Positions 2,672-56,590 of a DNA stretch of 64,000 nucleotides are shown in pieces. The notes beneath the pieces are model-generated. The model was not told the origin of the DNA. It did no database searches and was given only the letters and a program-made list of their open reading frames with translations. The position numbers were made by a program, and so were the translations under genes. The stretch's first letter is position 1; each line of letters begins with the position of its first letter. The stretch comes from Protula sp. h YS-2021. Lineage: Eukaryota; Annelida; Polychaeta; Sabellida; Serpulidae. Where the stretch lies: assembly GCA_949752745.1 (NCBI GenBank), contig OX457031.1:5600849-5664848 (forward strand). Direction: 5' to 3'.

Positions 2672-5123
2672 TTAGGTAGAAACAAGGTGCTGGCCAAACG
2701 CCACGTGTTCGAGCTGTCTCTTATTATCGCTCAGCCATGCCCTGATCTGGTGACACAGTGACATCATGACCCTCTGCTTCTGTCGGCTCGGATGGGCGTC
2801 CCCCTCGTCGTCCTGGCTGTGGAACAAGACGTCCTCGAGGTGGTAGGGGACCAGCCCCCCGGCTTCCACTCTCTCCTCCAGCTCTGCGTAGATTCGCTCG
2901 GTGACGTCGAACACGTTTCCCGAGAGTAAGGGCCGGTGTTCGGAAAGCACTTGTAATAAGCACGTCTTCAGCATGTAGGATGTGATGAAATCTTCGCTGT
3001 TAATACCGTGTGCTAGTCGCAGTGACGTCACATCACGAGGACAGCAAATGGACGCTAGCCGCACGCTTTGGCCGCGATGAAACCTTGCTTTATGTACGCC
3101 GGAAGTGACGTCATAAGCGCCCGTTCTGCTGTGGAATGAGACACAGCCAGACGGAAGTTATATGGATCACGCCGCGACGTTTTGGTGATGAGGTGGTAAT
3201 CCTGTTGATCCATGCCCTCTGGCAGAGTGACACCGGCCACATAACCTGGATAGGCGAAGGCGGGACGAGATCCACGCTTACCACCATATCCTTGAATACT
3301 GGCCCCCTCCAGAGCAAGTGCAGACAGGAAATCTTGTACTTGAGCGTCAGGGCGTATCGATGCAGATGTAAACAACCGAAGCGATGGCCTTCACAGACCA
3401 GCTTTGATAAATGTTTTTGAATCGTGTCATAGAAAGAGCTAGACACTTTCCTGGCGTTGAGGAGCCGTCATCGTTGCATAGGTTACTCCAGGGGGACAGC
3501 CCACGCACTCTTATCTTACCCACGGAAGCGGAATCGCTTAAAATCTCCAGCGCTTCGTCGTCATAGAACACGCAGACAATGTCCACCTCGTCCGGCATGT
3601 ACGTCTTTGTCCCCGCTGCCGTACTTCCGGCAACTTCCGCCTCGAACCGGAAGTGGGCGTCGGCGGAAGTTGCCGAAATGGAAGCCGATAGGCCGCGGAT
3701 GGCGGAGAGAACACTGTAGAGGATCCGCGCGCTTTCCGGGTGCGAATTCGTCTCCGCACACGAGGTGATCAGCTCGTGAAGGTATTCAGGTCGCGGGCTT
3801 GCCCGGATGTTGCTGTGTGACTCGGATGTGGTTTTTTGACCCGGATGTTGTTGTGTGACCCGGATATTGGTGCTGCAGGCTTTCTGTAATCGTACCACTT
3901 TGTGAAACTGTTAAGTCTTAGTTCAGATTGCACTGTCACGGATTTTGGAACCTTCGAGGAAATTAATGTAAAAATCTCATGATCTCTGCAAGCAACTTGA
4001 AGAGCATTTATTCCAGTACCGTCGGTTTCAGTGACGATGTTTCTCGATGCAAAGTACATAATCCATGGCTTGACTCCCAGCCTGACGGAGCACGTCAGAG
4101 GGCTTTCGCCTACGTAACCATAGTGATTGAGATCGTTCTCTAGCTCGGCCATTTCCGTGTGGCTGCCGAGGAGTTGGAGTATTTCCGGCGCGTGGCTGTG
4201 AGCTATGGCGTACTGCAGGGGTGTCATCCCGCGCCATAGCGCGCCCGCGTTTGCCTTGTGTTTGAGAAGAAGCCGCACCTTATCTGCGGAGTTCATGCGC
4301 ACTGCGCAGTGCAAGGCGCTCTCCCCTCCCGCAAAGGCGCTGTTGGCTTGTGCGCCGTGCTGGAGCAGCTTTTGGCAGATGTGCGCCGGGCATAGCTCGG
4401 TGGCAAGCGCCAGTGTGTGCGGCGCTGTGTTCACACAGCCCACTGCCTGGAGCAACAAATTCAGGCCTTCGTCCAGAAAGAACTGCTCGCGGAACGTACT
4501 CGTGTTGCCGCACTCTCCCAAAATGACGTCACAAGGCTTTCCCCTGCATTGTTTAATAAATTCAAACTGGGTTTGACTTTTGAGCTGTGGATAAATGTAC
4601 GGAGCAAATTTAGGTCATTTCACCCTGTCTTTGTGCGGCTAGGGCAACAAATTTGTGCACAGTTGCATTTCCCGCACTGTCTTGTATAGCTGAATTGCAT
4701 CTGTTATCTTTAAGAATATGAGCGATAATTGGGGAACAGTCAAATTCAATGGCTACGTGCAACGCTGTACGGCCTTGTAGGTCTTGCTGATTAATGTCAC
4801 AGTCGTTGCTGAGCATTAGAATCCGGACCACATCGATCCGTTTGTGCCACGACGCGCGGTGGAGAGCCGTCTGGCCGGCTATGTCCTGCCGGTTTACGTC
4901 ACATCGGTCATCGCGGAGAAGTAGTTGCACAACGGCTGTGTGGCCGCGTCCGGATGCCGCATGCAGCGGAGTGTGTCCATGCTGATCCGGACAGTTGATG
5001 TCCGCGCTGGCGCACTGAGTCAGGGTCTCAGCAGGGCGGGTGTTCCCGCGCGCACACGCGCAATGCAGAGCCGTCATGCCATGCTTATCCTGCAAAGTGA
5101 CGTCACACTTCCGGTGCGTGTGA
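2672..5123 (-). CDS. Ankyrin-repeat / Mab-21 (cGAS-like receptor) nucleotidyltransferase protein, copy 2, frame-broken
   Basis: Minus-strand gene in two halves. From 5123 to about 3930 it encodes roughly ten ankyrin repeats (DKHGMTALHCA, IAGQTALHRAS, GGESALHCAVRMN, WRGMTPLQYA). From about 3900 to 2672 it reads as a Mab-21/cGAS-like nucleotidyltransferase. A glycine-serine loop followed by the first acidic pair is seen as AGSTAAGTK...PDEVDIVCVF (about 3640-3560), the third acidic residue as VSVDLVP (about 3275), and the C-terminal helical part as SLPAYIKQGFIAAKA (about 3110-3065) and SYMLKTCLLQVL (about 2975). All three metal-ligand positions are therefore present. Frame changes occur near 3850, 3446, 3240, 3060 and also near 4520 and 4620, where copy 1 shows the missing base. 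The 5' end is lost in a 200-N gap. Family knowledge: cGLRs make cyclic dinucleotides on sensing nucleic acid and feed STING signalling; the ankyrin part would be the partner or sensor module. Intron positions cannot be excluded as the cause of some frame changes. Confidence 0.7.
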
Positions 5124-5323
5124 NNNNNNNNNNNNNNNNNNNNNNNNNNNNNNNNNNNNNNNNNNNNNNNNNNNNNNNNNNNNNNNNNNNNNNNNNNNNN
5201 NNNNNNNNNNNNNNNNNNNNNNNNNNNNNNNNNNNNNNNNNNNNNNNNNNNNNNNNNNNNNNNNNNNNNNNNNNNNNNNNNNNNNNNNNNNNNNNNNNNN
5301 NNNNNNNNNNNNNNNNNNNNNNN
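5124..5323. other. Assembly gap, exactly 200 N
   Basis: Two hundred consecutive N, a round number typical of a scaffolding join of unknown real length. The gene order across it (cGAS-like gene then SLC49A4) is therefore unproven, and the 5' end of the left gene and the 5' exons of the right gene may be lost here. Confidence 0.98.
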
Positions 5324-6162
5324 GACGACCGAGAGCGTGTTGTGAAAAAGAAGAAATAGTGACGTCTTTTTTTTACTTGACACTCTTCCTCCTCTCCCAC
5401 CCCCCCCCTCCCCCCCCCCCCCCCCCCCCGTCGCCTACCACCCTCCTCCACCCTTAGCTTTGTGCCATTTCTTCTTGTGATAGTTCTCACAAATTCCGTG
5501 AATTCGATCCGATAACAGGTATTGGACGTTTTTCACTTAAGCAGTAGTGTATTAAAATTTCGATATATAATTTTTAAATCAACGGTGGGGAGGTGTTTGA
5601 AGATCCCTCCATTCTTTTAAAAGATTTCCAGGAAACATTAAATCACACACTGGTCTGCTATCATCACCGCGTGGTCTGACGTCATCACAGCTTTGTCTGA
5701 CGTCATTACACCGTGATCTGGCGTCATCACACAGTGTCTGACGTCATCACAGCGTGGCCTGACGTCATCACACTGTGGCCTGATGTCATCGCACCGTGTT
5801 CTGGCGTCATCACGATCAAAAGGATATATATTTGGGAGTTCTGCAGATTCCGCAAACCTCCAAAAGTGAAGATAATCCCAACGACCATGGAAAGAAGCGT
5901 TGTTTCTCACGGAATAACTACAGTACAACCTCGTTACAGCGACGTGCTGGACCTCCAATTTATCGCGTTACCAGCGATATATCGTTAAAACATAAAGACG
6001 TGTTTTTAAATACAGTAGAGCCCTACTGTTTACCTCTTCTCGGTGTCAAAAATACATTGTATGTCGACTGGATACATAAAGTAACTTAAAGTGATACTCT
6101 GAAGGTATACGTCGGTGCAGGAATTACGACTGTTGCAGTGTGTGTTTATTTTTTGTTTTCAG
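5324..6162. other. Intron or 5' flank of SLC49A4
   Basis: Begins with C- and T-rich low complexity (5370-5430). It ends with a good splice acceptor (TTTTTTGTTTTCAG, AG at 6161-6162) that opens the first recognised SLC49A4 exon. A segment near 5928 (CAGTACAACCTCGTTACAGC) resembles pogo/Tigger-type transposon ends, but no partner end was found. Confidence 0.45.
5655..5815. repeat. 21-bp tandem array carrying TGACGTCAT (CRE) motifs
   Basis: About seven copies of a unit close to GTCTGACGTCATCACAGCGT. The palindromic CRE core TGACGTCA is kept in most units and degraded to GGCGTCA or TGATGTCA in others. Confidence 0.85.
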
Positions 6163-9100
6163 AGAGTATGAGAGGAACCACTGTGATCACACGATTAGTC
6201 ACATCAAGTCATGCATCATGCGCTACATGTACATGGGTGAGTGAGGGCGGGGGGGGGGAGGGGGGGAGGGAAGGGGGTGGGGTCAGGGCATGGGAGTGTG
6301 ATCACACGATTAGTCACATCAAGTCATGCATCATGCGCTACATGTACATAGGTGAGTGGGGGGGTGGGGCGGGAGGGAAGGGGGGAGGAGAGAGTGAGGG
6401 AAGGGGGTGGGGTCAGGGCATGAGAGTGTGATCACACGATTAGTCACATCAAGTCATGCATCATGCGCTACATGTACATAGGTGAGTGGGGGCGGGGGGG
6501 GGAGGAGGGGGGGAGGGAAGGGGGGTGGGGTCAGGGCATGAGAGTGTGATCACACGATCAGCCACATCAAGTCATGCATCATGCGCTACATGTACATAGG
6601 TGAGTGGGGGCGGGGGGGGAGGAGGGGGGGAGGGAAGGGGGGTGGGGTCAGGGCATGAGAGTGTGATCACACGATCAGCCACATCAAGTCATGCATCATG
6701 CGCTACATGTACATAGGTGAGTGAGGGCGGGGGGGAGGGGGTGGGTGAAGGGGGTGGGGTCAGGGCATGAGAGTGTGATCACACGATTAGTCACATCAAG
6801 TCAAGCATCATGCGCTACATGTACATAGGTGAGTGAGGGCGGGGGGGGAGGGGTGAGGGAAGGGGGGGGGTCAGGGCATGAGAGTGTGATCACACGATTA
6901 GTCACATCAAGTCAAGCATCATGCGCTACATGTACATGGGTGAGTGAGGGCGGGAGGGGGTGGGGGAGGAGGGGGTGAGGGAAGGGGGGGGGGTCAGGGC
7001 ATGAGAGTGTGACCACACGATTAGTCACATCAAGTTAAGCATCATGCGCTACATGTACATGGGTGAGTGAGGGCGGGAGGGGGTGGGGGGAGGAGGGGGT
7101 GAGGGATGGGGGGGGGTCAGGGCATGGGAGTGTGATCACACGATTAGTCACATCAAGTCAAGCATCATGCGCTACATGTACATAGGTGAGCGGGGGGGGG
7201 GGGGCGGGAGGGAAGGGGGGAGGAGAGAGTGAGGGAAGGGGGTGGGGTCAGGGCATGAGAGTGTGATCACACGATTAGTCACATCAAGTCATGCATCATG
7301 CGCTACATGTACATAGGTGAGTGGGGGCGGGGGGGGGAGGAGGGGGGGAGGAAGGGGGGTGGGGTCAGGGCATGAGAGTGTGATCACACGATCAGCCACA
7401 TCAAGTCATGCATCATGCGCTACATGTACATAGGTGAGTGAGGGCGGGGGGGGGGGGGAGGGGGTGGGGGAAGGGGGTGGGGAAGGGCATGAGAGTGTGA
7501 TCACACGATTAGTCACATTAAGTCAAGCATCATGCGCTACATGTACATAGGTGAGTGAGGGCGGGGGGGGGGGGGGGGGGTGGGGGGAGGAGGGGGTGAG
7601 GGAAGGGGGTGGGGTCAGGGCATGAGAGTGTGATCACACGATTAGTCACATCAAGTCAAGCATCATGCGCTACATGTACATGGGTGAGTGAGGGCGGGAG
7701 GGGGTGGGGGAGGAGGGGGTGAGGGAAGGGGGGGGGTCAGGGCATGAGAGTGTGATCACACGATTAGTCACATCAAGTCAAGCATCATGCGCTACATGTA
7801 CATAGGTGAGTGAGGGCGGGGGGGAGGGGGTGAGGGAAGGGGGTGGGGTCAGGGCATGAGAGTGTGACCACACGATCAGTCACATTAAGTCAAGCATCAT
7901 GCGCTACATGTACATAGGTGAGTGAGGGCGGGGGGGGGGGGGTGGGGGAGGAGGGGGTGAGGGAAGGGGGGGGGGTCAGGGCATGAGAGTGTGACCACAC
8001 GATCAGTAACGTTAAGTCAAGCATCATGCGCTACACGTATAGGTGAGTGGGGAAGGGATGGGGGGTATGAGGGCAGGGGGGAGAGGAGGAGATTGTGGGA
8101 TGAGGGTGGCCACTCGATCAGTTAAGCATTGCGCACAACATGCGCGTAACTGAATGAGGGCGCGGTGGGGGGGGGGGGGATAAGAGGGAAGGGTGGTAAG
8201 AGGAGACAGGTTTGAGGGCGGTGGCAGCCAATGCTATAAAGCCCTGATTGGAGCGAAATCGGGGGTGAGGGCAGGGGGAGAGTGGTGGGACAGTCGTTAT
8301 TGTAAGGCCCTGATCGGTGAGCCAGAGCCTGTGATTTTGCTGCGTCGGACGGATAATTATAACGCCACAGAGCTCTGATGGTCAACACGAGAGAAGGAAC
8401 AATTTGTCATCATATGGACGCTGTAATGACCACTGCTTCATTCTCATATAATCTCAGAAATGTTTTCATTCAAATGATCGTAACATAAATATCAAACACC
8501 AAAGAAAATTAACGAAAATTTTATGTACAAATGATCAGATGATGGGGTGGGATAAGTAGCTTCAATTTGATTTCGTTGTAAATGAAGTAAAAAAAAAAGG
8601 ATTCCGCGAAGCATGGCTTTATGGATGTGTCATCAGGCCACCATTTTAGTGCCTACTGGAATCTTAAGTGAAATACTGAATTACAGCTGGAGTGCTATTC
8701 TGCTCTGTCCTTATTTTTAAGGATGCCCTTATTTTTAAAATAAGGATAAAAAAAAGCTATTCTACTCAATCCTCAAACTGAACAAAGTCTTTTAAAAATA
8801 AGGATAAAAATTAAGGATGAACCATCTAATCTCAAGAACGTCCTTAAATATAAGGACAGAGCAGAATACCACTCCCCGTCGTATATCTAGGAGTAGGATC
8901 TGTTTATGTTTACAGACTTCACTCTGTGGATTCCGTCGTATATTTTGTTTGTGTTTACAGACTTGGCTCTGTGCATTCCCCGTATATTTTGTTCAGGTTT
9001 ACAGACTTGGCTGTGTGCATTCCCCGTATATTTTGTTCATGTTTACAGACTTGGCTCTGTGCATTCCCCGTATATTTTGTTCATGTTTACAGACTTGGCT

Positions 9101-12100
9101 CTGTGCATTCCCCGTATATTTTGTTCATGTTTACAGACTTGGCTCTGTGCATTCCCCGTATATTTTTGTTCATGTTTACAGACTTGGCTCTGTGCATTCC
9201 CCGTATATTTTGTTCATGTTTACAGACTTGGCTCTGTGCATTCCCCGTATATTTTGTTCATGTTTACAGACTTGGCTCTGTGCATTCCCCGTATATTTTG
9301 TTCATGTTTACAGACTTGGCTCTGTGCATTCCCCGTATATTTCGTTTATGTTTACAGACTTTGCTATGTGCATTCCCCGTATATTTTGTTCATGTTTACA
9401 GGACTTCGCTCTGTACATTCCCCGTATATTTTGTTCATGTTTACAGACTTGGCTCTGTGCATTCCCCGTATATTTTGTTCATGTTTACAGACTTGGCTCT
9501 GTGCATTCCCCGTATATTTTGTTCATATTTACAGACTTCGCTCTGTGCATTCCGTCGTATATTTCGTTTATGTTTACAGACTTTGCTATGTGCATTCGTC
9601 GTATATTTTGTTCATGTTTACAGACTTCGCTCTGTACATTCCCCGTATATTTTGTTCATGTTTACAGACTTGGCTCTGTGCATTCCCCGTATATTTTGTT
9701 CATGTTTACAGACTTGGCTCTGTGCATTCCCCGTATATTTTGTTCATGGTTACAGACTTGGCTCTGTGCATTCCCCGTATATTTTGTTCATGTTTACAGA
9801 CTTGGCTCTGTGCGCGGCGCTTTTCGTCATGGTACTGGTCCGCTACCCATCCAAGCCCAGATTCCCGCCCACCCTGTCGGCGTCCATCGAGAGGTCTCCC
9901 TTCATCCCAAGCATGAAGGAACTCTTCAAGTAAGAAGTACGGGGGTGGGGGGGGGGGCGGGGGGGGGGGCGGCGGGGATAGGGATGTCAGTCTACACGTC
10001 AGTTTGGTTGTACTTTTGATAGCTGCACAGATATCACATGCAGATCCGTAACATAATCAAGTGGGGCTGGGTTGTAATCGTGATAGGGGGGGGAGAGAGG
10101 GGTGGCGAATGATCGAATTCGTCTGGAAATCGCCTGCGAAAAAATCCTGAACATGTTGCATGCGCCTTCCAGAAATATCCCCCCCCCCCCTCTCTCCCGT
10201 CTCTTTTGGATCAGCAGATCCAGATGCCTGTTTAAGTGATGCAACGTCAGCCTGGACTTGGAGTGAGGATCCGTCGGCTGGACTATTTAATTGCAATTTG
10301 TGTTGACAGGCACGGGCGGTTCTGGATGCTGGGGCTTCCTTACGCCATATCCGGCGGCGTGCTGGGATGCTGGGGATCAGTGCTCGACATCAACATCGGT
10401 CCGCTAGGAGTGTCGGAGGTGAGGAGGCGCGGGGGGAGGGGGGAGGGATTCTGGGGATCAGTGCTCGACATCAACATCGGTCCGCTACAGGGCTCGAAAT
10501 TAATGGGAGCCCGAGGCTCCCAGATTTCGCGCCGGGCTCCGAGATTTTCGGATCTCGGAGCCCGGCTGGCTCCCGGAAAATCCGGTATTTTTTTTTACAA
10601 TACTGAAATCGGATTTTATTTATTGTGACGCCAAAAACTTAACAATGAACTTAATTATTTTTAATTATTTTATGAGAAATCCATGCTTTGAAAACTGCAC
10701 GCTAGAGCACATCAGGTTTCTCCACAATGAATTTGTTCATAATTGATAAGAAATCAGCTTTGAAACATTTCAGGACTACATTGTGGAACTAGAGCAGTGT
10801 GCATAGCCCACATATTCCCCACAGGCCCCCATCAGTTAAACATGGCCATCAATAGTCAATCAAGAGCTGAAATTTTCCAAGTTCAGTTGGTGTATTTTCC
10901 ATGGACGAACCTGGCCCATTTACAACATCGATCTGTGTTTCTTCCCATAGAAGCTACATACCAAGTTTCATTAAAATCCCTGCAGTTGTTCTTGAGATGT
11001 CGTGTTAACAAACTCATTCCGATGCTGAATAATTTCCAGGATTTGGTATATTTCGAAGTGCATTTGGATCATTTTCCTTGGGCCAAAATAACCCATTTAC
11101 CAGACGGACCCACAACTTCAGTGACCATCTAAACTATAGGGTTTTCTTCCTGCTAGATTTGATCAAAATCGGATTAGCTGTCTCTGAGATACCGTGTGCA
11201 CATAGTCAAAAAGTCAAAAACACACAAAAGTGAAATTTAAAAAAATGTTCAATATACAATTTTTAATCAGAATCAACCTTCGTGATGATGTGCACTATCT
11301 GGTGTTTCTAATTCCAGGGTTTGGAGAAGATCCGATACACCGTTTTAGAGATATCGCGTGAACAAAGTCCAAAACAGCTAAAAACAAATCAAAGTGCCAA
11401 AGTACCAAAAGTTCGTCAAAAATTCAATTGTTGACAAAAATAAAAAATAACCCTTTAGTGATGATCGTCACAGTATGGTCTTTCTTTCTAAAAGGTTCGA
11501 TGAAGATCTGATGAAATGTTTTAGAGATATCGCGTAAACGAAGTCCAAAAACAGTTAAAAAAAACACCTAAGTTAAAATTTCAAAAATTCGTCAAAAATT
11601 CAATTTAAAAAAAAAATCAAATCAATTCCTTAGTGCAAATCTGCACTATATGGTCTTGCTTTCTGCAAGGTATGGTGAAGAACTGATGAGCTATTTTTGA
11701 GATATCGCACAAACAAAGTTTAAAAACAGTACTGAAAACACTAAAATTAAAAAAAAAATATCAGTCCGCCAAAAAAAATTGGTGTGCATCAAGCTACGAC
11801 CATGGGACTGAGTCCTGTACACTTTCAGTCCAAATGGCCTACACATCTAAGAGGAATGAGTGGTAACGGACGCACAGACGGACGGACAGATAGACAGACG
11901 GGCAGAGCGCAATTCATAAGCTCTTTCCGGGGCACAAAGCCCCGGTTGGGGGCTAAAAAACGAAAAGTGATTGGCGGTCCTGCCTAAGTGATGATCACGT
12001 TAGTTACTTCATGATGGTTCAACTGGAATCAGAAGAAATATCTAGCTTTGACCCTAGCCATGTTATTGATCTTTGGGCCACTTCAGGTGTTTGAATAAGG

Positions 12101-15100
12101 CGTCCCGATATGATGGACAAAAAAGAGGAAAAATGAAAAAGGCAAACAAGTTGTAAACGAAGAAAACGAAGCTTGGCAGAACTTAGATTTCATGTTATGA
12201 CAAGTGTGACATTAATAAAAAATCGAATACACTTTTTTTATTTTTTTATTTTTTTTATTTAATCAAACATGTATACTCCGGGCTTCCAGATTTTGGGTCG
12301 GGCTCCCAGATTTTCAGACCCGGGAGCCCGGTGGCTCCAAGTCAAAAATAGTTAAGTTCGAGCCCTGGTCCGCTAGGAGTGTCGGAGGTGAGGAGGCGCG
12401 AGGGGAGGGGACAGGGATGGTGGGAATCAGTGCTCGACATCAACATCGGTCAGCTAGGAGTGTCGGACGCAGAGGTGAGGAGGGGAGGGGGAGGGGGGAG
12501 GGACTCTGGGGATCAGTGCTCGACATCAACATCGGTCCGCTAGGAGTGTCGGAGGTGAGGAGGCGCGGGAGGAGGGGGGAGGGATTCTGGGGATCAGTGC
12601 TCGACATCAACATCGGTCCGCTAGGAGTGTCGGAAGTGAGTAGGGGAGGGGGAGGGGAGAGGGATTCTGGGGATCAGTGCTCGACATCAACATCGGTCCG
12701 CTAGGAGTATCGGAGGTGAGGAGGGGCGGGGGCGGGGGCGGTGGTGGTGGCGTAGATGGGGAAGGAGGGCAGGGATGATGGAGAAGTCGGAGTTCATTTC
12801 TGTATTTGCAGGAAGAGGTAGGATTGGTGAGGTTCATGTATGGTTGTGTGCGTGTTTACAGGGCAGGGCAGGATGGCTGGGGTTCATGTATGCTTGTGTT
12901 AACAGGGCACAGCAGGATGGCTGGGGTTCATGCATGATTGTGTTTGTTTACAGGGCACGGCAGGATGGCTGGGGTTCATGTATGCTTGTGTGTGTGTTTA
13001 CAGGGCACGGCAGGATGGCTGGGGTTCATGTATGCCTGTGTGTGTGTGTTTACAGGGCACGGTGGGATGGCTGGGGTTCATGCATGCTTGTGTGTGTGTT
13101 TACAGGGCACGGCGGGATGGCTGGGGTTCATGTGTGCTTGTGACTGTGTATACAGGGCACGGTGGGATTGCTGGGGTTCATGTATGCTTGTGTGTGTGTG
13201 TTTACAGGGCACGGCGGGATGGCTGGGGTTCATGTGTGCTTGTGTGTGTGTTTACAGGGCACGGCAGGGTGGCTGGGGTTCATGTATTCTTGTGTGTGTG
13301 TTTACAGGGCACGGCAGGATGGCTGGGGTTCATGTATGCTTGTGTGTGTGTTTACAGGGCACGGCGGGATGGCTGGGGTTCATCAGCACCATGGCGGGGC
13401 AGCTAGCCGTTGTACTGGTGGGAATGTAAGTGCAAAACTTTCTTTGATAAAACTATATTTCGGAATTTAACATCACTGATTTTGCTCGTTACATTTTACG
13501 ACTCAACATTGCTCATTTCAGAGTGTATGTTTCAGATTCGGGGCTTCAGAAGTTGCTTTTCAGTTTTTACGTTTCAGATTCTACGATGCAGATTCCAGGT
13601 TTTAGATTGTGCGTTTCAGATTCTACGGTGCAGGTTCTATGTTTCAGATTCTGCGAATCAGATTGTACGATTCAGATTCTAGGTTTCAGATTGTGCGAAT
13701 CAGATTCTACGATGCAGATTCTACGTTTCAGATTCTACGATGCAGATTCTACGTTTCAGATTCCAGGTTTTAGATTGTGCGTTTCAGATTCTACGGTGCA
13801 GGTTCTATGTTTCAGATTCTGCGAATCAGATTGTACGATTCGGTTCTGCGTTTCAAATTGTGCGAATCAGATTGTACGATTCGGTTCTGCGTTTCAGATT
13901 GTGCGAATCAGATTGTACGATTCAGATTCTAGGTTTCAGATTGTGCGAATCAGATTGTACGATTCGGTTCTGCGTTTCAGATTGTGCGAATCAGATTGTG
14001 CGATTCGGATTCTACGTTTCAGATTCGCGGACGTGTTCGCGCGCCGGATGAAGCTCTTCCTGCTCTCGCTGTTTATCGTCGGCACCGTTTCCTTCCTCGT
14101 CTTCGCCCTCATGTGTTCTAAACTGCTTCCCTTCAACATAGGTGAGTGGCTATGCGCCCAACTTGAGACGAGCAACTGTGCGCTGAATAGCAGTAACTAT
14201 GTAACGAACAGTAACCTAGTTAGCGTGTAGCAGTGAGTCGTTTCGCATGGAAAATTTGGGGAGTGACTATGCACAGGACAGTAGGCTAATGACTATGCGC
14301 TGAAAAGCGGTGAGTAGTTTGGCATCGAAAAATAGACGAGTGACTATGCATCGATCAGAAGGCGAAAAACTCTGTACCTAACAGCAAATAGGTAACTATG
14401 CGCCTAGAAGCCAGTTAGTAACTATGAACTGATGAGTGCACAGAGTCTGTCTAATGCTTTCCCATGGTAATTCCTGATCGGTTGGTCGATTAAGGGGCCA
14501 GCCATGAATTGCGTGCGCGGGTTTTCAGACCTGTCAGTGTACTGAGACCGTTTCCGGTTTCCGGTTTGCTCGATGCTCTAATAAAAAGAGTTCTATAAAT
14601 AAAACAAGTAAGTAAATAAATATGTGCTTCATCTTAAGACTTTGACCCATTGATCTGTCACCGTTGCATATTACATATAATTTCATCTCTGATTCATGTT
14701 TTATTCATGTAACATCCATGTCACACTTTGCTACAGGTCTGTTGCATCTGTTACACTTTGTTGCATCTTCAATACTTTACATCTCGGTTGTAGCTGTGCA
14801 ATGCTGCTTCTTATCTTTGTTACACCAGTATTACATTGTTACATAAATATTGCACTCCATGTTACACAGCTGTTAGGAAAGATTGTGCACGCTCTGACTG
14901 CGGTACGCATATATTATACCCAGTCAGTATTATACATCTGTTACACCATTGTCACAAATATGTTACACCACTTGTTACACCCCTGTGTCTCCTTTACAGT
15001 GGTGCTGTTCGCCGCCGACATCGTGGGTAACATGGGCGTGTTCGGCGCCACGCCGCTGTTCTTTGAGCTCGCCTGCGAGTCCGCCTACCCCGTGGCCGAG

Positions 15101-16480
15101 GGCATCACCAACACCCTCATGACGTGGCTGAACAACCTCATGGGGCTCATCTTCCTCTCCATCCTCATGATTCCCGCCACCGGTAAGTTCTTAAACCTTT
15201 GAAGTCCTCGGCAATTTCCGGAAGTGCTCGTCTTCCTCTCAATCCTCATGATCCCCGCCACCGGCAAGTTCTTAGACCTGCCAAGACCTCGGTAATTTCC
15301 GGAAGTGTTCGTCTTCCTCTTCATCCTCATGATCCCCGCCACTGGTAAGTTCTTAGACCTGCCAAGACCTCGGCAGTTTCCGGAAGTGTTCGTCTTCCTC
15401 TCCCTCCTCATGATCCCCACCACCGGTAAGTTCTTAACCCTTTGAAGACCTCGGCAATTTCCGGAAGTGCTCGTCTTCCTGTCCATCCTGATGATCCCAA
15501 CAACCAGTAAGTTCTTAAACCTGTGAAGACCTCGGCAATTTCCGGAAGTGTTCGTCTTCCTCTCCCTCCTCATGATCCCCACCACCGGTAAGTTCTTAAA
15601 CCTTTGAAGACCTCGGCAATTTCCGGAAGTACTCGTCTTCCTCTCCATCCTCATGATCCCCACCACCGGTAAGTTCTTTAACCTTTTGAAGACCTCGGTG
15701 ATTTCCGGAAGTGTTCGCCTTCCTCTCTATCCATATGATCCCGGCCACTGGTGCCTTCCATACATGGGAATCTTCCGGCTTTTACGGCTTTTTTTGCCAA
15801 ATCGACCCCGTTTCCATGTATGGTAAAATTTTCCGGCTTTTTTTCGACCCCGTTCTCATGTATGCGTTCGTTAACCCTTTGAAGACCTCGGAAGTTTCCG
15901 GAAGTGTTCGTCTTCCCCTCCATCTTCATGATCCCTGGTACCGATGCGTTTGCTGAAAACTCTAGTATTTACCTTAAGGACGGAATAAGCATAAAATGAG
16001 GCAGCTTTCTTGTAACTGAAGGGTTAATTTTTTCAAAAGCTGCATTGGTGTTCAGCGGAAAAGGTTTTTTTTCACCCGTTGTAAGTAATAATAATAAACA
16101 GCGTGAGTACAATTACCACAACAATTTAAAGAATGATAATGATAATAACAGTAATAGATACTAGTGTAGTGTACAGTATTGAGTGTACAGTATTGTCGTC
16201 GGGTGATACTGTTGGCAGTATTGGTAATTGTAACAATGAAAATTAAGTACTGGGGCGAGGTACGAGGTATACATTTTTACAGGAAGTGCTCACGTTTTAA
16301 AGCCGTTTTGTTTCAGGCACGGCGTGGACAAACTGGTGTCTGACGGGTGCCGTAGGCATATGCGTACCTGTCTTTGTATTCTACCGGGAGCGCTACGCCA
16401 GGCTCGATATAGACTCGCACACACAGCAGCAGCAACGCCCCCAGGCGGTCATCACCGTCATTAATGACTACCCTTCTTAG
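6163..16480 (+). CDS. SLC49A4: SLC49A4 (DIRC2) orthologue, seven C-terminal exons
   Basis: Exons: 6163-6236, 9800-9929, 10310-10418, 13358-13425, 14023-14141, 15000-15182, 16317-16480 (stop). Every boundary is AG/GT and all phases join in one frame, giving 281 residues. Landmarks match the human DIRC2 C-terminal half as I recall it: SHIKSCI (human AHIKDRI), RYPSKPRFPPTL, LPYAISGGVLGCWGSVLDIN, AGWLGF, RFAD-like IFADVFARRMKLFLL, PLFFELACESAYPVAEGIT, NWCLTGAVG, and a final YRERYARLDID. This is the second six-helix half of a major facilitator transporter. The mammalian protein sits in lysosomes, and vitamin B6 export has been reported for it. The N-terminal ~200 residues are not visible and may be in or beyond the N gap. 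Unusually, nearly every splice junction is embedded in its own tandem array, so the true donor or acceptor copy used is ambiguous in several places. Confidence 0.92.
6178..8060. repeat. Minisatellite built from exon 6163-6236 end plus its splice donor (about 16 copies)
   Basis: Unit about 113-133 bp: the exon segment GTGATCACACGATTAGTCAC ... GCGCTACATGTACATRG, then the donor GTGAGTG, then a variable G-rich block (potential G-quadruplex). Unit starts lie near 6178, 6297, 6427, 6545, 6661, 6774, 6887, 7010, 7131, 7262, 7378, 7497, 7630, 7752, 7865 and 7990. Nearly every unit keeps an intact GT donor after the copied exon end. Confidence 0.95.
8061..8879. other. Intron sequence between two junction arrays
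   Basis: Degenerate G-rich repeats to about 8320, then AT-rich unique DNA. At 8700-8870 a short internally repeated stretch contains several copies of a TTTTTAAAATAAGGAT-like motif in both orientations. No exon recognised. Confidence 0.5.
8880..9799. repeat. 44-bp minisatellite built from the splice acceptor and exon start of exon 9800-9929 (about 20 copies)
   Basis: Unit: GTATATTTTGTTCATGTTTACAG (intron end) then ACTTGGCTCTGTGC (first 14 exon bases) then ATTCCCC. The last copy runs into the real exon at 9800. The unit has no plus-strand stop in any frame; because 44 is not a multiple of three, one long open frame cycles through all three readings. Confidence 0.95.
10360..12740. repeat. Minisatellite built from exon 10310-10418 end plus its donor (about 6 copies, split by a hAT element)
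   Basis: Unit about 75-85 bp: GGATCAGTGCTCGACATCAA ... CCGCTAGGAGTGTCGGAG then donor GTGAGG and a G-rich spacer. Copies start near 10376 (the true exon end), 10456 (interrupted at 10488 and resumed at 12368), 12426, 12513, 12592 and 12672. Confidence 0.93.
10488..12367. mobile_element. Non-autonomous hAT-type DNA transposon, 1,880 bp
   Basis: Ends are inverted: CAGGGCTCGAA at 10488 and its reverse complement ending TTCGAGCCCTG at 12367. Both ends continue into imperfect inverted GGGAGCCCG/CGGGCTCCC palindromes. It is flanked by a perfect 8-bp duplication GTCCGCTA (10480-10487 and 12368-12375), as expected for hAT. The interior has no transposase and holds 3-4 degenerate repeats of about 180 bp (11150-11780) sharing GAGATATCGCGT and CAAAAATTCAATT. 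It sits inside the second unit of the exon-donor minisatellite, so it inserted after that array formed. Confidence 0.93.
12810..13357. repeat. About 50-bp minisatellite built from the acceptor and start of exon 13358-13425 (about 11 copies)
   Basis: Unit: GTGTGTGTTTACAG (intron end), GGCACGGCGGGATGGCTGGG (exon start) and TTCATGTATGCTT. Acceptor copies lie near 12857, 12902, 12953, 13002, 13055, 13103, 13155, 13207, 13257, 13306 and 13357. The final one leads into the real exon. Confidence 0.93.
13525..14022. repeat. 12-25-bp tandem array of TTTCAGATT built on the acceptor of exon 14023-14141
   Basis: Dozens of short units of the form TTTCAGATTCTACG or GTGCGAATCAGATTGTACGA. Each carries a CAG acceptor-like triplet and the first exon bases ATT. 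The last unit is the real acceptor at 14021-14022. Confidence 0.9.
14142..14440. repeat. Degenerate array starting at the donor of exon 14023-14141
   Basis: Diverged copies of a roughly 40-60-bp unit, GTGAGTGGCTATGCGC followed by an AGCAGTAACTATG-like part, begin exactly at the splice donor at 14142. Several GTGAGT or GTGACT words recur. Confidence 0.6.
14690..14999. repeat. Degenerate TTGTTACAC array ending at the acceptor of exon 15000-15182
   Basis: Many variants of TTGTTACAC, TGTTACATC and ACACCT, spaced 10-25 bp apart, run up to the acceptor CTCCTTTACAG at 14999. Confidence 0.55.
15150..15960. repeat. About 78-bp minisatellite built from exon 15000-15182 end plus its donor (about 9 copies)
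   Basis: Unit: CTCGTCTTCCTCTCCATCCT, CATGATCCCCGCCACCG, then donor GTAAGTTC, then TTGAAGACCTCGGCAATTTC and CGGAAGTG. Copies start near 15150 (true exon end), 15229, 15307, 15388, 15468, 15548, 15630, 15710 and 15905. Most keep GTAAGTTC intact. Two units (15725-15860) are disrupted. Confidence 0.93.
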
Positions 16481-16501
16481 GTTGAATATGGCAGATTAGG
16501 T

Positions 16502-25462: not shown

Positions 25463-28400
25463 CTATTGTGTGGTAGACGACATATACTTAATGTGTCTTG
25501 GGTGTCCGTCCCAACATTTTTCAGCCTTTCCATCGCACTCAGAGTATTTGACTCGATTCCGACCGCCATTTGCAGAATAGATGAGCAGAGTGTGGACATG
25601 CCCTTCGGCTTCGCTTGTCGTTACCCTGATTTCCTTCATGTTCTTTATGGCGTCCATTTCGGTCTCGCTTAGTTGTATTTCATGAACGTGTTGATTGGTT
25701 TCCACATTTGAAGGACTCAGCTTATAGATGTACTTCGTTGATCCTTGTGATTCATCTGCTGACCCTTGACTTCCGATAGTGATCGGATTGTACATGACAT
25801 GACCGTAGGCTAGCGGATCCATTACAATTGCCTTCATAGCTTCTATTTCTTTCCAGAGGAGTGTCCCGTCGTCATGTATTGGAGCTATAGGGTACCGCTG
25901 GCGTAAGGAACCAACCCCGGGAATATTTGGAATGAATGCACGATGTCCGGAAGCTCTCATTAAGCGCTCAGTGCCGTTAGAATCCAAGACAAAGACTGCG
26001 AATTTGCTTAGGTGATCGTTTACGAAAAAGTTGTTGGGTGTTAGATAGAAATTTCGGGTGTTTGTTCCGTTGAGCGCTTTTCCGGCTTTACCGTTTCTAC
26101 CTCCGGCTGTCACAGCATCAAAATTCGGGTTACCCTTAGGATAAAAATTTATATTATATGGATTCCACTTGGATAGCGGTGTTAGGTAAATAATTTCTAA
26201 GGGAATAGCGTAAGTCCATTTTTGTGAAATAACATTGCATTTATTCCCACGGCATACTGTTAAATTCATTCCAGCAATTTTGTCTTGATCAGTCATTGCC
26301 ATGTAAATATTCTGATCAGCGAAACCACGGTAACGGAACTGCTCTCCCATTGCATCCAGTTTGGAAACAAAGAAGTTGCGATGATAGTACCCAGCATTCA
26401 ATGTTGTAGTTCTATTGTCTGACTCCAAATAGATATCGTCCTCAAACCCTTTGTCCTCAAAGTACGCGTCGTAATTATTCTTTCCCGGGATCTCAAGCAT
26501 CATGGAATCTAGTAGTTTGTTCCTTTTATTAGACTCCTTTGTGAACGGTGCGTCTACTGTATTAAGCCGGAACCTAGCGAGACGTGAGTTCTTATAGTTC
26601 TCTAGAGGCATTTGATCGCGCATGCGCGCTGACAGGTCATCGACCACGCGAAGTCTATCTAGGGGCAGATCATTCCTTAGAGGGTGGCACAATATATCAT
26701 AGTTCCATTGGGCAAAGACAGGGTAACCAGTCTCTGTGACATTGAATACAACCTGGGGCAAGTAAGCAATGTTCTCAAGTCTGCCCTTTGATCCTGAATA
26801 AGCCTGGTATCTTGTTTTTTCTTGCATTTCAAACCAGTTATTAGCATCGAGGAAGTGGCGATCACTTTCAAATGATTCGTCTATAGTATCATCGGAATAA
26901 GTCCACATACCCTCCATGTAACACAACACTGGTCTGAAATAGGGTCGGTAATCTCGAACTGAATAGTTTTGGTCACGCCACGCCTCAAACCATTTCGACA
27001 TTTCTACTATCTGCTCCTCGGCAGTAGGTAAATTAGTGACTTCCTTTGGTACATCTGGAAATGGAATGTCTTCCGTTGCCTGGTAATCCTGTGAAGTTGT
27101 ACTCGGCATTTTTAGTTTGTAATCATTGTGACGTGTACGAAATTCAACGCCGTTCATGACAGCAGTGACTTCTCCCATACCAATGGTTCTGTCGTAAGGC
27201 TTGTGGTCATGGATAACAGCAAAACCTCGGCCCGATACCGTCTCCGAAAAGTACGCTTTTGTCCCCTCATTTGTGTGCCGGATCTATGAAAAAGCTATTT
27301 TTATAGTGGTTATGTTCTGTCAACTGTTGTATAACAGCCTCTGTGGAATTTGTGAACACTGATAAGATAATGTATGTGCGATAAGATAGTGCAAGTGCGA
27401 TATGATAACATAAGTGCGATAACACAGATATAACACCGATCGGCTGCAAAGCTAAACACTTTTAAAATTATGAACACTGATAAGATAACGTAAGTGCGAT
27501 AAGATAACGCAAGTGCGATAAGATAACGCATGTGCGATAACACAGATGTAACACCGATTGGCTGCGAAGCCGACCACTTTTAAAGGGAAATACGGGTATC
27601 TCTGCGCCATCTAGCTACCGAAATGCGCATTACATTGAATATCGCTGAGTTTGAATCAAAGTTTACACAGTATAAATAGCTACTAAATCCGTCTAGATGG
27701 AATTTTTTTATTCAAAGACAAACAGAATAGTGTCCTGAAATGGTCTGTATTGATATTTTGTTCCTAGAAAGGCCTGTGTTTATATATTGTCCATTAAAAT
27801 CATAGTACACTGTTTCCTACCATTTATCCATTGAGTCAATGGGATTGACTCAAGTATCAAAAGTGTATAATTCTCTTATTGATGCGGTGACATATATTTT
27901 TGATTCGCTTAAAACATTTCATATGACGTGTTCTTCAAACAGGGAAAAAATGAGGCAATTGTCAATTGTGATTATGTGTGAATTTTGCATTTTGATTGAA
28001 ATTTCTTGGTTTTCCCAATGGTTTCTATAGTTAAAGGTACGCGACCTTTCAGTGTCTTTATTTCTCTTATAACATCGGTGACCCCCCTTTTTCTTTTCAA
28101 TTTTTGAATATTCACCCTCAAAGCATTAAACTGTGAAAGTATGAAGGAAATGTCAATTGTAGGTGAGATACCCGCATTTCCCTTTAAATCCTATTTGTCT
28201 AGTCCACATGAAGTTTATTTCTTACAGACAGTTCTTAAACTTACAGTAAATAGCGTAATTTGTGGTGCAACGACTGATTTTGTATTTTATGTGACATTTA
28301 ACAAATATATGAATATTTACTTTGGTAAGGTAAAACGTATTTGTAGAATGACCACATTTAGTTATCTTTTTACAAAAGGAAAAACAAACTGTTTTTTACT

Positions 28401-50981: not shown

Positions 50982-51078
50982 AGTAATACATTCTGTCAAC
51001 AAGTCAACAAGTGGATATTGTGTGACGGGAAAAGACTTGACAATGTCGGCCTTACTTTTTCACAGATGTGTAGAGACC

Positions 51079-51480
51079 ATGGATGACGTCTTCAAAGTGA
51101 ATTATGCTGACTATGTGTTTTCAAAGCTTCCTGCTTTTGAATCGGATTGGATGCTGCAAGTGAAGAACTTACATCAGCATTGGGAAGCTGTTGGAAAGAC
51201 CATTCCAAGAGATCGTTTCATCCGCTCGTTTCTACGTGAATGTGAAGATCTACATTTACCGTTAACTTATGACATTGATTTAGCATTTATCAACGTGAAT
51301 ACAATTTGGGCAGTTGAGCTCATGTTAGATGTGGCTGCAAGAATCATTTTACGTTATGATGATGATGTTCCAAATAATGTATCAGACCTTGTCCGATTCA
51401 ACCATGGACGAGTTGAAGTGAATTCAAACGTTTGCAAGTTCTTTGAAAAGGGAGCTGACTCAGCAGATAGTTGGGTATAA
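51079..51480 (+). CDS. Viral early-type protein, unknown function
   Basis: Frame open from 50965. The promoter geometry puts transcription start near 50977, so the upstream ATG at 50965 is unlikely. ATG 51043 is possible, and ATG 51079 has the best context (ACCATGG), giving 133 residues starting MDDVFKVNYADYVFSKLP. Predicted mostly helical, acidic at its end, with no recognised motif (no LxCxE). Its stop codon lies inside the TATA box of the next gene (51476-51483). Confidence 0.65.
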   Translation: MDDVFKVNYADYVFSKLPAFESDWMLQVKNLHQHWEAVGKTIPRDRFIRSFLRECEDLHLPLTYDIDLAFINVNTIWAVELMLDVAARIILRYDDDVPNNVSDLVRFNHGRVEVNSNVCKFFEKGADSADSWV

Positions 51481-51512
51481 AAGGGAGTGAACTCAGCAGA
51501 GTGAAGTCATTT
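51476..51512 (+). promoter_or_regulatory. Viral core promoter 3: TATAAAAG and TCATTT
   Basis: TATAAAAG at 51476 overlaps the upstream stop codon. TCATTT starts at 51507, again 31 nt downstream. AACTCAGCAGAGTGAAGTCA resembles the same region of promoter 1 (CAGCAGTGACAGTCA). Confidence 0.8.
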
Positions 51513-51560
51513 CTCAGCAGACAGTTGGAGGGAGTGCATCATCAGTACATTGTAGCAGCC

Positions 51561-52192
51561 ATGGAGAACAAGACAAGCAACGCAACGCAGCGCAGCAGCA
51601 GCTTTAAAATTAGTGCTAACTTAACCATTACTGTGGAGCATGGAGAATATGGGCCATTTCTACGCATCACACGTGGAGAGAGATGGTGTGCTTATTCACC
51701 ATCTTTGTGGAAGATTGTATGCCAAAGCTTGAAAAATTCAAACTGTACTTAACGCAAACGAAGTGGCTTGAAGTCATTTCATACTTGGATATGCGCTATG
51801 TGAGTTTTGTGCGCACGTCACGGTTTGAAGGGAAAGAATACACACATCACATCAACATGAATGATGGTGAATGGGAGACACTGCTTCAGGAGATGGACAA
51901 CATCAACTCAGCCCTATCACCATGTGAGGAATGTCATGACAAGAAAACGATCATCAAGCTGCAAAAGGATGGTCGGATGAAGTTGTCAAAGCTATCCAAG
52001 AAAAGGCTGGCTGAAGTTCAGTTGGAGAACATGAACGTACAAAATCAACTTGGACTTACCTGTGACTATTGCGGTGCTTGTGGATATGTGGAGGATTATC
52101 ATTGCCACTGCCACAAGTATAATTGCAAGTTGTGTGAACCAAGCAACTTCTGCGGCAAGTGTGGAGTACTTAAAGTCAGTGAAGCAAAGTAA
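51561..52192 (+). CDS. PC4-like protein with Cys-rich tail, one-base frame break
   Basis: The first segment from ATG 51561 (after promoter 3) reads ITVEHGEYGPFLRITRGERW...SPSLWKIV and stops at 51752. The second frame, open from before 51683 to 52192, reads LYLTQTKWLEVISYL, INMNDGEWETLLQEMDNI and then a Cys-rich tail (CEECH; CDYCGACGY...HCHCHKYNCKLC...CGKCG) suited to metal binding. The strand pattern ending in ...W..L resembles the PC4-like genes at 59932-61337. The two frames are best reconciled around an A5 run at 51732-51736; this could be a sequencing error, decay or frameshifting. Confidence 0.6.
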
Positions 52193-52216
52193 AAGCCCAC
52201 AAGACACTGAAACAAG

Positions 52217-52726
52217 ATGGACGCATGTTTTAAAAATGCTTATATTGACTTGATGATTGCTAAACTTGCTTGCTGTGGCACTCCAGACTATCAACTTTAT
52301 CATTTGGATGCTTTTTGGGATGTTGTACATCATAGTCTTGATGTGATTGAACTGCATTCAAGATTTCTTGGAGAATGTCATAAAACTGGAATAGAAGAAG
52401 ATCCTGACTTTGACTTTGATTCTGCACTTTATTCTGCTCGCACTGATGTGGAAGTATATTTCACCGTGGTTGATCATTTGAGAGATTGTTGTAAAGAAGA
52501 AGAGGAAACCGAGCAGCTTTATCAGGTAAGTTATAAAAACCTTTTTTAAACATGTTTATGACAACATAGTGAATTGTTTCTCAAAGACATAACAATGTTT
52601 TTCTTACTAGCAAATTTAGTTTTATGTGAGTGGTTTCAACGTAAACAAAGAAAGAATATGATAGAAGAGGCAGCAAATATATTAAAAGATATTTTATTAC
52701 AGGAAGAAACCGACATGTCAGAATAA
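52217..52726 (+). CDS. Viral small helical protein, apparently spliced
   Basis: Exon 1 is 52217-52525 (103 codons, MDACFKNAYIDLMIAKLACC...) and ends EQLYQ at CAG/GTAAGT. A 176-bp intron ends TTTTATTACAG at 52702. Exon 2 (52703-52726) adds seven codons, EETDMSE, and a stop, continuing the acidic run, for 110 residues. Read unspliced, the frame ends at 52549. Function unknown; rich in Asp/Glu at its C-terminus. Confidence 0.55.
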
Positions 52727-52741
52727 AGAAGGAAAGTCAAC

Positions 52742-53179
52742 ATGGAGAATCTTGTACTATTCAGCGGTCATAAGGACGTTCTTTCAAACATGTTTCCAAC
52801 ACGACTTGAAAAGTATGGACATGTGTTCAACTCAAGTGAAGCTTTGTATCAATATGAGAAAGCAGTGTTTCATCACCGTCCAGATATTGCTTCAGCCATT
52901 GCTTCATGTAGAAATGGATATGAAGCAAAACGTATTGCTAAAGTGATAAAGCCATGTCCTTTATGGCATACAGTGAAGAGAAGCAAAATGCAAGATGTTT
53001 TACAAGTCAAACTGGATCAGTGTGTATTGTTTCGCAACAAGTTGAAAGAATGTAAAGACAAAACTTTAGTTGAAGCAACGTATGATCATTGGTGGGGAGC
53101 TGGTGTGAAACAAGTGTCATCTGGATATCCTGGTCAGAATATCATGGGAAAGTTGTTAGAACTGTTGTGTGAGGGTTAG
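52742..53179 (+). CDS. NADAR-domain protein (YbiA/DUF1768-like)
   Basis: 145 residues, the usual length of a single NADAR domain. Family landmarks in order: LVLFSGHKDVLSNMFP (4-19), NSSEALYQYEKA with conserved E33 and K40, IAKVIKPCPLW (W75), R80-x-x-M83 followed by K90, LVEAT (E111), DHWWGAG (115-121) and GQNIMGKLLELL (N133). NADAR proteins bind or hydrolyse ADP-ribose conjugates; some bacterial and phage members remove ADP-ribose from nucleic acid. It sits among early-type genes just upstream of integrase, so it may counter host ADP-ribosylation during infection, which is inference. It starts 15 nt after the preceding gene's last exon. Confidence 0.88.
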   Translation: MENLVLFSGHKDVLSNMFPTRLEKYGHVFNSSEALYQYEKAVFHHRPDIASAIASCRNGYEAKRIAKVIKPCPLWHTVKRSKMQDVLQVKLDQCVLFRNKLKECKDKTLVEATYDHWWGAGVKQVSSGYPGQNIMGKLLELLCEG

Positions 53180-53280
53180 AGACTTTTTCATTTGCTTGCC
53201 AACCGTCATGGTGTGCAGACGTGTGAACATGTAAATTTGAAGTATGTTTAACTTGTGTTGCATTGATTCAAGACTGCACA

Positions 53281-53613
53281 ATGGCGGACATGACACTGAG
53301 ACAATATATTGTGCAAAAAGCTTATTGTGAAGAAATGTTATCCGCTGTAAAAAAGTTTGCCTATTTAGTCTGTCCTGCTTGTCAACATGAAGAGTGTCAA
53401 GAACATACTTGTCATTTTGCATCTGTTTATACATATTTGAATGAAGCTAAATATTACATGCATTTAGATAAAGTGTTAGAGAATGCAAATCAACGTTGTG
53501 AGAAATATGGTGTAGATGCTATTACATTGGATGAACTCAGTCATTGGTTAGTGTTCATTGAAGACCAATGGTCTCCAGTGATTCATACCATTGTATCTAT
53601 ACTTGATTTGTAA
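53281..53613 (+). CDS. Viral small protein with Cys/His cluster, unknown
   Basis: 110 residues from ATG 53281 (CACAATGGCGG context); a longer start at 53263 is less likely. Near residue 30 it has C-P-A-C-Q-H-E-E-C-Q-E-H-T-C-H, a plausible zinc site, followed by helical sequence ending WLVFIEDQWSPVIHTIVSI. No family recognised. Confidence 0.6.
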   Translation: MADMTLRQYIVQKAYCEEMLSAVKKFAYLVCPACQHEECQEHTCHFASVYTYLNEAKYYMHLDKVLENANQRCEKYGVDAITLDELSHWLVFIEDQWSPVIHTIVSILDL

Positions 53614-53672
53614 AAAACTTGTTAGTTAAGTTATAAATGCATGTTAGTTAAGTGATGTTGGTTGAGTTATAA

Positions 53673-53709
53673 AATAAAAGCTGTTCTGTTGAGAAGGTGG
53701 TTTTCATTC
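53673..53709 (+). promoter_or_regulatory. Viral core promoter 4: AATAAAAG and TCATTC
   Basis: AATAAAAG (with an overlapping TATAAAA at 53668) starts at 53673 and TCATTC, a perfect TCAKTY initiator, at 53704: 31 nt again. The integrase ATG follows 15 nt downstream. Confidence 0.7.
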
Positions 53710-53718
53710 GGTGTGACC

Positions 53719-54826
53719 ATGTCGACGTGGAAAGACTACTTGACTGATATTTACTTCAAACCTGGACAGCCTGGAGCATTTGCTGGTCCTTACAAACTGT
53801 ATCACATCTTACGAAAACATAATCAACCAGTCACACAGTCACAAGTGAAGAAATGGTTGCAGGATCAAGATGCTTTCAGTTTACTCCAACCTGTCAAATA
53901 CAGGTTCAAAAGACAACGTGTCATTACACGTGGTATTGATGATATGTGGGATATTGATTTGGCTGATATGGGAAACATAGCTCCCTATAATGATGACATA
54001 CGCTTTTTACTCATTGTCATTGATGTGTTTTCCAAATATGTCTGGGTACAGCCAATACCTAATAAATCACATACCAGCGTCATACAAGCTTTCCAAAAGA
54101 TTTTTTCATGACACACGACGAAGACCGCGAACTCTAAGGTCTGATAAAGGAACAGAATTTAAAAACAGATGGGTAAAAGCATTTTTGAAGAAAGAAGGCA
54201 TTCATGCTTATATCACAAAGAATGAAACCAAAGCCAACTTTGCTGAAAGAGTCATTCGTACTCTGAAGGGAATGATGTATCGGTATTTTCTACATAATCA
54301 AACTTACCGTTACTTAGACATTCTTCCAGACTTGGTGTACAATTACAACCATAGACCTCATGGTTCTCTTCCTAATAAATATGCTCCAGCCGAGATTCGT
54401 AAAGACAACGAATCAAAAGTGTGGAAGTATATGTATGTTGACAAACTGAAATTGAAACCGAAGAAGAAGAAGAAGTACAAATTTAACATTGGTGATCATG
54501 TTCGCATTTCTCACATTAAATATGTGTTTCAACGGGATTATCACATCAAATGGACGCAAGAAGTCTTCATTGTCACACATCGTTGTAAGAAGCAAGGAAT
54601 ACATTTATATCGTGTGAAAGACTTTTTAGACGAAGATATTGATGGTCATTTCTATGAAGAAGAACTGCAGAAAGTGACCAAAGATATTGAATCTATTTAT
54701 AGAATTGAAAAAGTCTTGAAAACACGTAAAAGACGAGGAGGAGGTGTGAAAGAATTATTTGTCAAGTGGTTAGGTTGGCCAAACAAGTTTAACAGTTGGG
54801 TGAAAGAAACAGACATTCAACAATGA
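53719..54826 (+). CDS. INT: Retroviral-type integrase with chromodomain, one-base frame break
   Basis: DDE integrase that would insert the linear element with a short target duplication. The first frame (ATG 53719, ACCATGTCG) carries the N-terminal helical region, then WDIDLADM with the first catalytic Asp and VIDVFSKYVWVQPI, and stops at 54111. The next frame, open to 54826, carries LRSDKGTEF (second Asp) and NFAERVIRTLK (catalytic Glu). It ends with a chromodomain (YRIEKVLKTR, FVKWLGWPNKFNSWV). The break lies at a T6 run at 54101-54106 between the first and second catalytic residues. Without frameshifting or correction the enzyme is inactive. Its stop overlaps the ATPase start as ATGA. Confidence 0.93.
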
Positions 54827-55482
54827 AGCATCCATTTACATGTTTAGTCTCTGGACCTACAGGCAGTGGCAAAACGTCTCTGGTGAAGGAAATTCTAGAA
54901 CAAAAGTTGATTAAACCCTCTCCAAAAAGCATTTTATGGCTCTATGCAGCAGATCAGCCTTTGTACAAGGGAATGAAAGGCGTGGAATTTTACCAAGGCA
55001 TTCCAGATGACATTGAAGAGCGTTTTAACCCGAAGAAACCAAACTTACTTATCATTGATGACTTAATGACGAAATGCCATAGTGATGAGCGTATGACACG
55101 TCTCTTTAGTGTTGGCAGCAGTCATCAAAATCTAAGCATTATTTTTATTGTGCATAATTTATTCCATCATGGGAAAGAGATGCGAAATATTAGTTTGAAT
55201 ACACATTATATCATTCTGTTTAAAAATCCGAGAGACAGTCAACAAATTAGTACATTGGCGCGGCAAATGTATCCTAGAAGATCTCAATTTCTCATAGAAG
55301 CCTATCAAGATGCTACTAGCAAACCTCATGGTTATTTATTCATTGATTTAAAACCACAGACAAATGATCAACTACGTATTCGTACAGGCATTTTACCAAA
55401 AGATACACATTATGTATATATTGATAAAGCAGTGTATGAACAAGAACCAAGTCATTTAACCATTCGCAGTCAAGATGTCTAA
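54823..55482 (+). CDS. Genome-packaging ATPase (FtsK/HerA, A32-like)
   Basis: 219 residues starting MKHPFTCLVS. Walker A is GPTGSGKT at 11-18 and Walker B is LLIIDD at 75-80, with a later sensor-type region (IIFIVHNLFH). Such ATPases translocate viral DNA into preformed capsids in Polintons and related viruses. An in-frame ATG exists at 54796, but 54823 starts at the conserved leader and gives the 4-base ATGA overlap with integrase. The end overlaps the next gene by 8 bases. Confidence 0.95.
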   Translation: MKHPFTCLVSGPTGSGKTSLVKEILEQKLIKPSPKSILWLYAADQPLYKGMKGVEFYQGIPDDIEERFNPKKPNLLIIDDLMTKCHSDERMTRLFSVGSSHQNLSIIFIVHNLFHHGKEMRNISLNTHYIILFKNPRDSQQISTLARQMYPRRSQFLIEAYQDATSKPHGYLFIDLKPQTNDQLRIRTGILPKDTHYVYIDKAVYEQEPSHLTIRSQDV

Positions 55483-55801
55483 ACGTATTCGAGCGAACCA
55501 GCCGTTTCTTCACTTGCTTGCACGCAGTGGGCCTAAACGACGTAAATCCTTGCTACAGCAAGCTACAAAGGAGGAATTAACAAGCTTGTTTGAAATTTGT
55601 TTGAATATATTGCAAGGACATTTACCCTTAAGCTCAAAACGGTTTAAGGAATTTAAACGTGAACGTCATACGCTACGTACTCTAGCTGATAAGAAGATAT
55701 CTCTTCGACGAAAAAAGAAGTTGATTAATCAGAAAGGAGGATTCATTGGAGTTATTGCTAGATTGGCATTACCTTTGTTAGCCAAACTACTGCTAAAATG
55801 A
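55475..55801 (+). CDS. Conserved small Polinton/adintovirus virion-type protein
   Basis: 108 residues: a basic N-terminal half (LLARSGPKRRKSLLQQA), FEICLNILQGHLPLSS in the middle, a Lys/Arg-rich stretch, and a C-terminal GGFIGVIARLALPLLAKLLL hydrophobic amphipathic tail. I recall this pattern (LL..GP..RK.LL ... N.L.G..PL ... GGF) as a recurrent companion of Polinton ATPase genes. The role is probably structural, unproven. Overlaps the ATPase by 8 bases and the next gene by 4 (ATGA). Confidence 0.8.
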   Translation: MSKRIRANQPFLHLLARSGPKRRKSLLQQATKEELTSLFEICLNILQGHLPLSSKRFKEFKRERHTLRTLADKKISLRRKKKLINQKGGFIGVIARLALPLLAKLLLK

Positions 55802-56579: not shown

Positions 56580-56590
56580 TTCCCACCATC

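Follow-up and report, generated by a model that had tools for sequence, protein, structure and literature searches.

An SLC49A4-like transporter gene, found in the window of 64,000 nucleotides that makes up the whole stretch of DNA analysed here, carries six tandem arrays, each of which lies across an exon-intron junction. These are very probably an unusually dense set of mirages, that is, of tandem duplications that cross the border, have grown into the intron and leave the copy on the exon side as the one that is spliced. Mirages were described in amphioxus as minisatellite-like tandem duplications at the 5' or 3' intron-exon boundary, with BflGb6, BflGb9 and Adh3 as the examples (PMC3087553), and imperfect repeats of 60 bp and 108 bp lie over splice sites at two exons of lancelet PGBD5, in a paper that also cites troponin C (PMC3902484). 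The preliminary description of this DNA, which had recognised the arrays, took the pattern to be undescribed, and this is wrong at least for amphioxus.

The gene runs along the forward strand from 6163 to 16480, and the spliced frame together with alignment to homologues places seven exons within the window: the first one seen at 6163..6236 (acceptor 6163, donor 6236), further ones at 9800..9929, 10310..10418, 13358..13425, 14023..14141 and 15000..15182, and the last coding exon, including the stop codon, at 16317..16480. GT-AG joins between them give an open frame of 281 aa, in which the MFS_1 Pfam domain scores 35.7 bits against a cut-off of 33.4. Ten protein homologues were found, one of them a solute carrier family 49 member 4 homolog (Montipora), and the five solved sequences that match the protein at about 1e-14 are all FLVCR1 or FLVCR2. 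When five of these ten (35-45% identity) are aligned with the protein, all six intron positions are free of gaps, which supports the junctions; the preliminary description was right about both the identity of the gene and the positions of its junctions. No N-terminal exons were recognised by eye in the window, and an assembly gap of 200 N lies close to the gene at 5124-5323. Beside this gap, the stretches 57-1250 and 4028-5100 have near-identical ankyrin-coding translations on the minus strand according to the ORF list.

The six arrays identified earlier are indeed present, and TRF together with the ungapped protein alignment shows them crossing three donors (6236, 10418 and 15182) and three acceptors (9800, 13358 and 14023), with units of 14-117 bp. 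All lie on the forward strand, and their description combines TRF with a junction probe, the exon bases per unit being partly counted by eye. Across donor 6236, a 117-bp unit with about 55 exon bases is repeated 15.5 times (6182..8049), while the array across acceptor 9800 has 20.7 copies of a 44-bp unit that holds 14 exon bases (8901..9813). The array at donor 10418 is in two pieces: copy 1 and a partial copy 2, read by eye rather than from a TRF row, lie at about 10363..10487, and the remainder at 12367..12738 has 4.6 copies of an 80-bp unit with about 55 exon bases. Acceptor 13358 is crossed by 11.4 copies of a 50-bp unit with 26 exon bases (12820..13383), and donor 15182 by 7.4 copies of an 81-bp unit with about 38 (15145..15742). 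The array across acceptor 14023 (13559..14026), built of 33.6 copies of a 14-bp unit or of a 42-bp higher-order unit, is the weakest of the six, with 4-9 exon bases common.

What separates the two pieces at donor 10418 is an inserted element of 1.88 kb (10488..12367) with 16-nt inverted ends (94%) and an 8-bp target duplication, GTCCGCTA. We take this element, which has a 2.2-copy repeat within it at 11342-11730, to be hAT-like. Its insertion point is an exon-derived stretch of the array, and the array is therefore older than the insertion. The same split, with its target duplication, speaks against the arrays being assembly artefacts, as does the fact that their units are unlike each other: in the first array the mean identity between units is lowest, at 64%, in the G-rich part that is intron and highest, at 96%, in the part that is exon. 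Even with the 200-N gap nearby, such an artefact is very hard to credit.

The arrays also have little in common with one another. Between-array matches at E <= 1 amount to 27 nt, shared by two G-rich arrays, and a further 18 nt, so that the earlier assertion of unrelated unit sequences holds for the most part and fails for these two short matches; a unit common to different arrays was accordingly rejected. G-quadruplex motifs occur in two of the six arrays, both at donors and on the coding strand (coverage 42% and 20-29%), and the idea that they are a feature common to the arrays was likewise rejected, the other four being free of the motif. In two arrays, those at 9800 and 15182, divergence is greatest in the units farthest out. 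Similarity showed no gradient away from the junction at P <0.05 in any of six comparisons over five arrays (those at 6236, 9800, 13358, 14023 and 15182), and the comparison nearest to significance, that of the 14023 array (P 0.054), ran in the opposite sense. Searches with Rfam at gathering scores and with ARAGORN (bacterial code) returned nothing, and a bacterial promoter scan of 9790-9830 was uninformative.

Many of the repeated units carry an intact copy of the splice site. Among the junction-probe matches, with the real site counted, the dinucleotide is intact in 15/15 at 6236, 20/20 at 9800, 5/8 at 10418, 11/11 at 13358, 19/21 at 14023 and 7/8 at 15182; two of the three failures at 10418 are G-rich false matches, and the third is a copy with its donor shifted to 12474. 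Once the copies that escaped the probe (one each at 8042 and 9402) and the shifted one are included, 74 copies beyond the six real sites keep GT or AG, 26 of them donors and 48 acceptors, in line with the tens of copied sites expected from the preliminary description. When one site is changed at a time, every other donor copy (26/26) leads to a premature stop, as do 34 of the 48 other acceptor copies, and the 14 acceptor copies that stay in frame add residues that are absent from the five aligned homologues. The length of the homologous proteins is obtained only with the exon-side copies. The arrays are therefore most simply read as intronic, with splicing probably picking the outermost copy. 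With a splice-site matrix, 22 of the 25 GT donor copies that are in register do at least as well as their own real donor, and the site alone thus does not explain the choice. It could be argued from these scores, and from the stops predicted from all the donor copies, that selection keeps the spare donors and acceptors as backup sites or for tuning expression through poison transcripts. However, the dinucleotide has been lost in some copies (15263, 13857 and 14009), and this reading appears improbable.

Whether the arrays sit on junctions more often than chance allows was assessed by random placement within the gene. The arrays counted were those with at least 3 copies, a period of at least 10 and a TRF score of at least 100 between 5324 and 16481, seven in number; rows nested in the 6236 array, the C-rich 5388-5429, the G-rich 9941-9977 (score 55-60), short two-copy rows and 11342-11730 were dropped. 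Each array was shrunk to a single unit, which reduced 5324-16481 to 4603 bp and, at the 10418 array, also took six exon bases (10360-10365) out of the model gene. Six of the seven arrays lie on junctions against 1.04 expected, and in each of these six the exon-side edge of the array crosses the junction. The gene was picked for its pattern, and the following probabilities are all uncorrected for that choice: 1.9e-5 when at least 4 exon bases are required, 3.5e-5 when wholly exonic units are left out, 2.5e-5 with full-size arrays (5 of 200000 draws), 4.1e-4 when the weakest array is omitted (5/6) and 2.7e-4, with an approximate placement chance, when a 175-bp repeat within the inserted element is added (6/8). 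Inside the SLC49A4-like gene, the arrays thus sit on junctions more often than random placement predicts. As an observation made post hoc, the junction sits near the middle of the unit across the six arrays (6182-15742), with a mean deviation of 0.11 unit (P 0.018). Inspection by eye of the ORF lists, which covered 17-64 kb at a minimum of 110 aa and 33.5-50.5 kb at a minimum of 55 aa, brought up no further spliced gene whose model could be tested and that could serve as a control.

Such an excess invites the suggestion that the exon-intron borders of this lineage act as mutational hotspots, at which transcription or splicing would, by way of R-loops, G-quadruplexes or break repair near the nascent RNA, preferentially start or expand tandem duplications. 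The placement result, the G-quadruplex motifs on the coding strand of two donor arrays, the junction lying closer to the unit middle than expected and the occurrence of the pattern in several amphioxus genes (PMC3087553, PMC3902484) would all fit this suggestion. Yet the gene was selected for the very pattern at issue, the probability rises to the values given above when the weakest array is removed or the element repeat added, four of the six arrays are motif-free, the units of the different arrays share little sequence, and the gradient away from the junction is not significant. The suggestion is therefore tentative and rather unlikely to be correct. Exon borders may be the target of a mutation process; the stronger claim in the preliminary description, that a border-targeting mechanism is needed, was not established, given the choice of the gene and the presence of G-quadruplexes in only two arrays of six.

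Moreover, the pattern might owe itself to chance and to the reader's selection, with the SLC49A4-like gene in the tail of the distribution of a repeat-rich genome. TRF gives 96 rows over the whole window, with many arrays outside the gene, and a probability of about 2e-5 would not be extreme when multiplied over tens of thousands of genes. On the other hand, genes with seven arrays are likely to be few, and the same pattern is reported at Adh3, the globins, PGBD5 and other loci (PMC3087553, PMC3902484); chance with selection seems an unlikely account.

Two further, degenerate arrays had been proposed, one adjoining donor 14141 (14142..14440) and one of TGTTACAC-type repeats ahead of acceptor 15000 (14640..14999), both on the forward strand. 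Their self-similarity was reached by none of 300 dinucleotide shuffles each. However, two of four other intron stretches (9930-10309 and 8120-8900) also pass the same test, the other two being reached by shuffles in 111/300 (13426-13535) and 15/300 (15960-16316), and TRF at a minimum score of 30 found nothing in 14142-14440, while its rows in 14640-14999 are all short, with scores of 39-50. Both degenerate arrays are weak for these reasons.

Set beside the amphioxus mirages of PMC3087553, the six arrays agree in crossing the exon-intron boundary, in occurring at both the 5' and the 3' ends of introns and in unit size, the 14-117 bp seen here falling inside the reported 10-160 bp (10-72 bp in Adh3 and 150-160 bp in the globins). 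In both cases many units, though not all, retain AG or GT. Mirages are unstable in length, between haplotypes or cells (PMC3087553); the array data presented here come from one haplotype. The present arrays differ in that six of them occur in a single gene, the largest having about 15-20 junction copies (or 34 short units at 14023). Boundary units of the globin mirages escape homogenisation (PMC3087553). Here, over the arrays other than that at 14023, the real copy resembles the other copies at least as much as these resemble each other in six of seven comparisons and slightly less in one, although the farthest units are the most diverged at 9800 and 15182. Lancelet PGBD5 (PMC3902484) is alike in having repeats that overlap splice sites at more than one exon of one gene, with two arrays of 2-7 copies against six larger ones here, and PMC3087553 cites two further amphioxus loci, with papers on a retinol dehydrogenase and a presenilin. 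In amphioxus VCBP3, whole exons or parts of them, along with splice sites, are mentioned inside introns (PMC2632668). Minisatellites also lie at human exon-intron boundaries, where they are able to create new splicing patterns (PMC2812944); those are in primate segmental-duplication genes and come with transcript evidence. Tandem genomic duplication has likewise been linked to intron structure through intron gain (PMC4974935), but there the gain of a new intron is reported, whereas in the SLC49A4-like gene existing introns seem to have been enlarged. No report of a genome-wide scan for border arrays was found among open-licence PubMed Central papers, and PMC12783039, PMC4039745 and PMC2206037 proved to have no bearing on these arrays.

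Elsewhere in the window, a 131-bp x 3.5 array on the minus strand (1300-1741) ends beside what may be the acceptor for some ankyrin-type coding sequence, and by eye its units lack the AG of that acceptor. A run of ORFs at 51000-61000 includes a chromodomain with a sub-threshold integrase match, an A32/IVa2-type packaging ATPase above cut-off, an adenovirus-type protease match just under cut-off and two more ORFs without a Pfam family; the run resembles a Polinton/Maverick-type virus-like element. A 606-aa ORF on the minus strand (25463-27283) has 674 relatives and no Pfam family; of the 120 relatives listed, those that bear names come from cnidarians, annelids, brachiopods and molluscs, and one is labelled as a capsid protein.

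The origin of mirages is called unclear in PMC3087553, where RT-PCR suggests regular splicing despite their presence. For the six arrays, read as mirages, birth may have come about through short tandem duplications across the exon-intron border, and growth into the intron through slippage or unequal exchange. Splicing would most likely use the copy beside the exon, the whole array being removed as intron, and the arrays might be tolerated if use of the other donor copies leads to premature stops and transcript decay. 

Overall, only a handful of amphioxus genes are reported to contain mirages. A gene with six such arrays therefore offers a strong test of whether exon-intron borders are mutational hotspots, of how the spliceosome chooses among tens of near-identical sites and of how introns grow or originate. 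Cephalochordate names are absent among the ten SLC49A4-like homologues and among the 120 of 674 relatives listed for the 606-aa ORF, only some of which are named, and a further protein search gave no match; if the host is other than amphioxus, mirages would be extended to another lineage. Should the borders be hotspots across the genome of this lineage through a transcription- or splicing-linked process, which we consider doubtful, introns would grow from their borders and do so with large stocks of ready-made splice sites.
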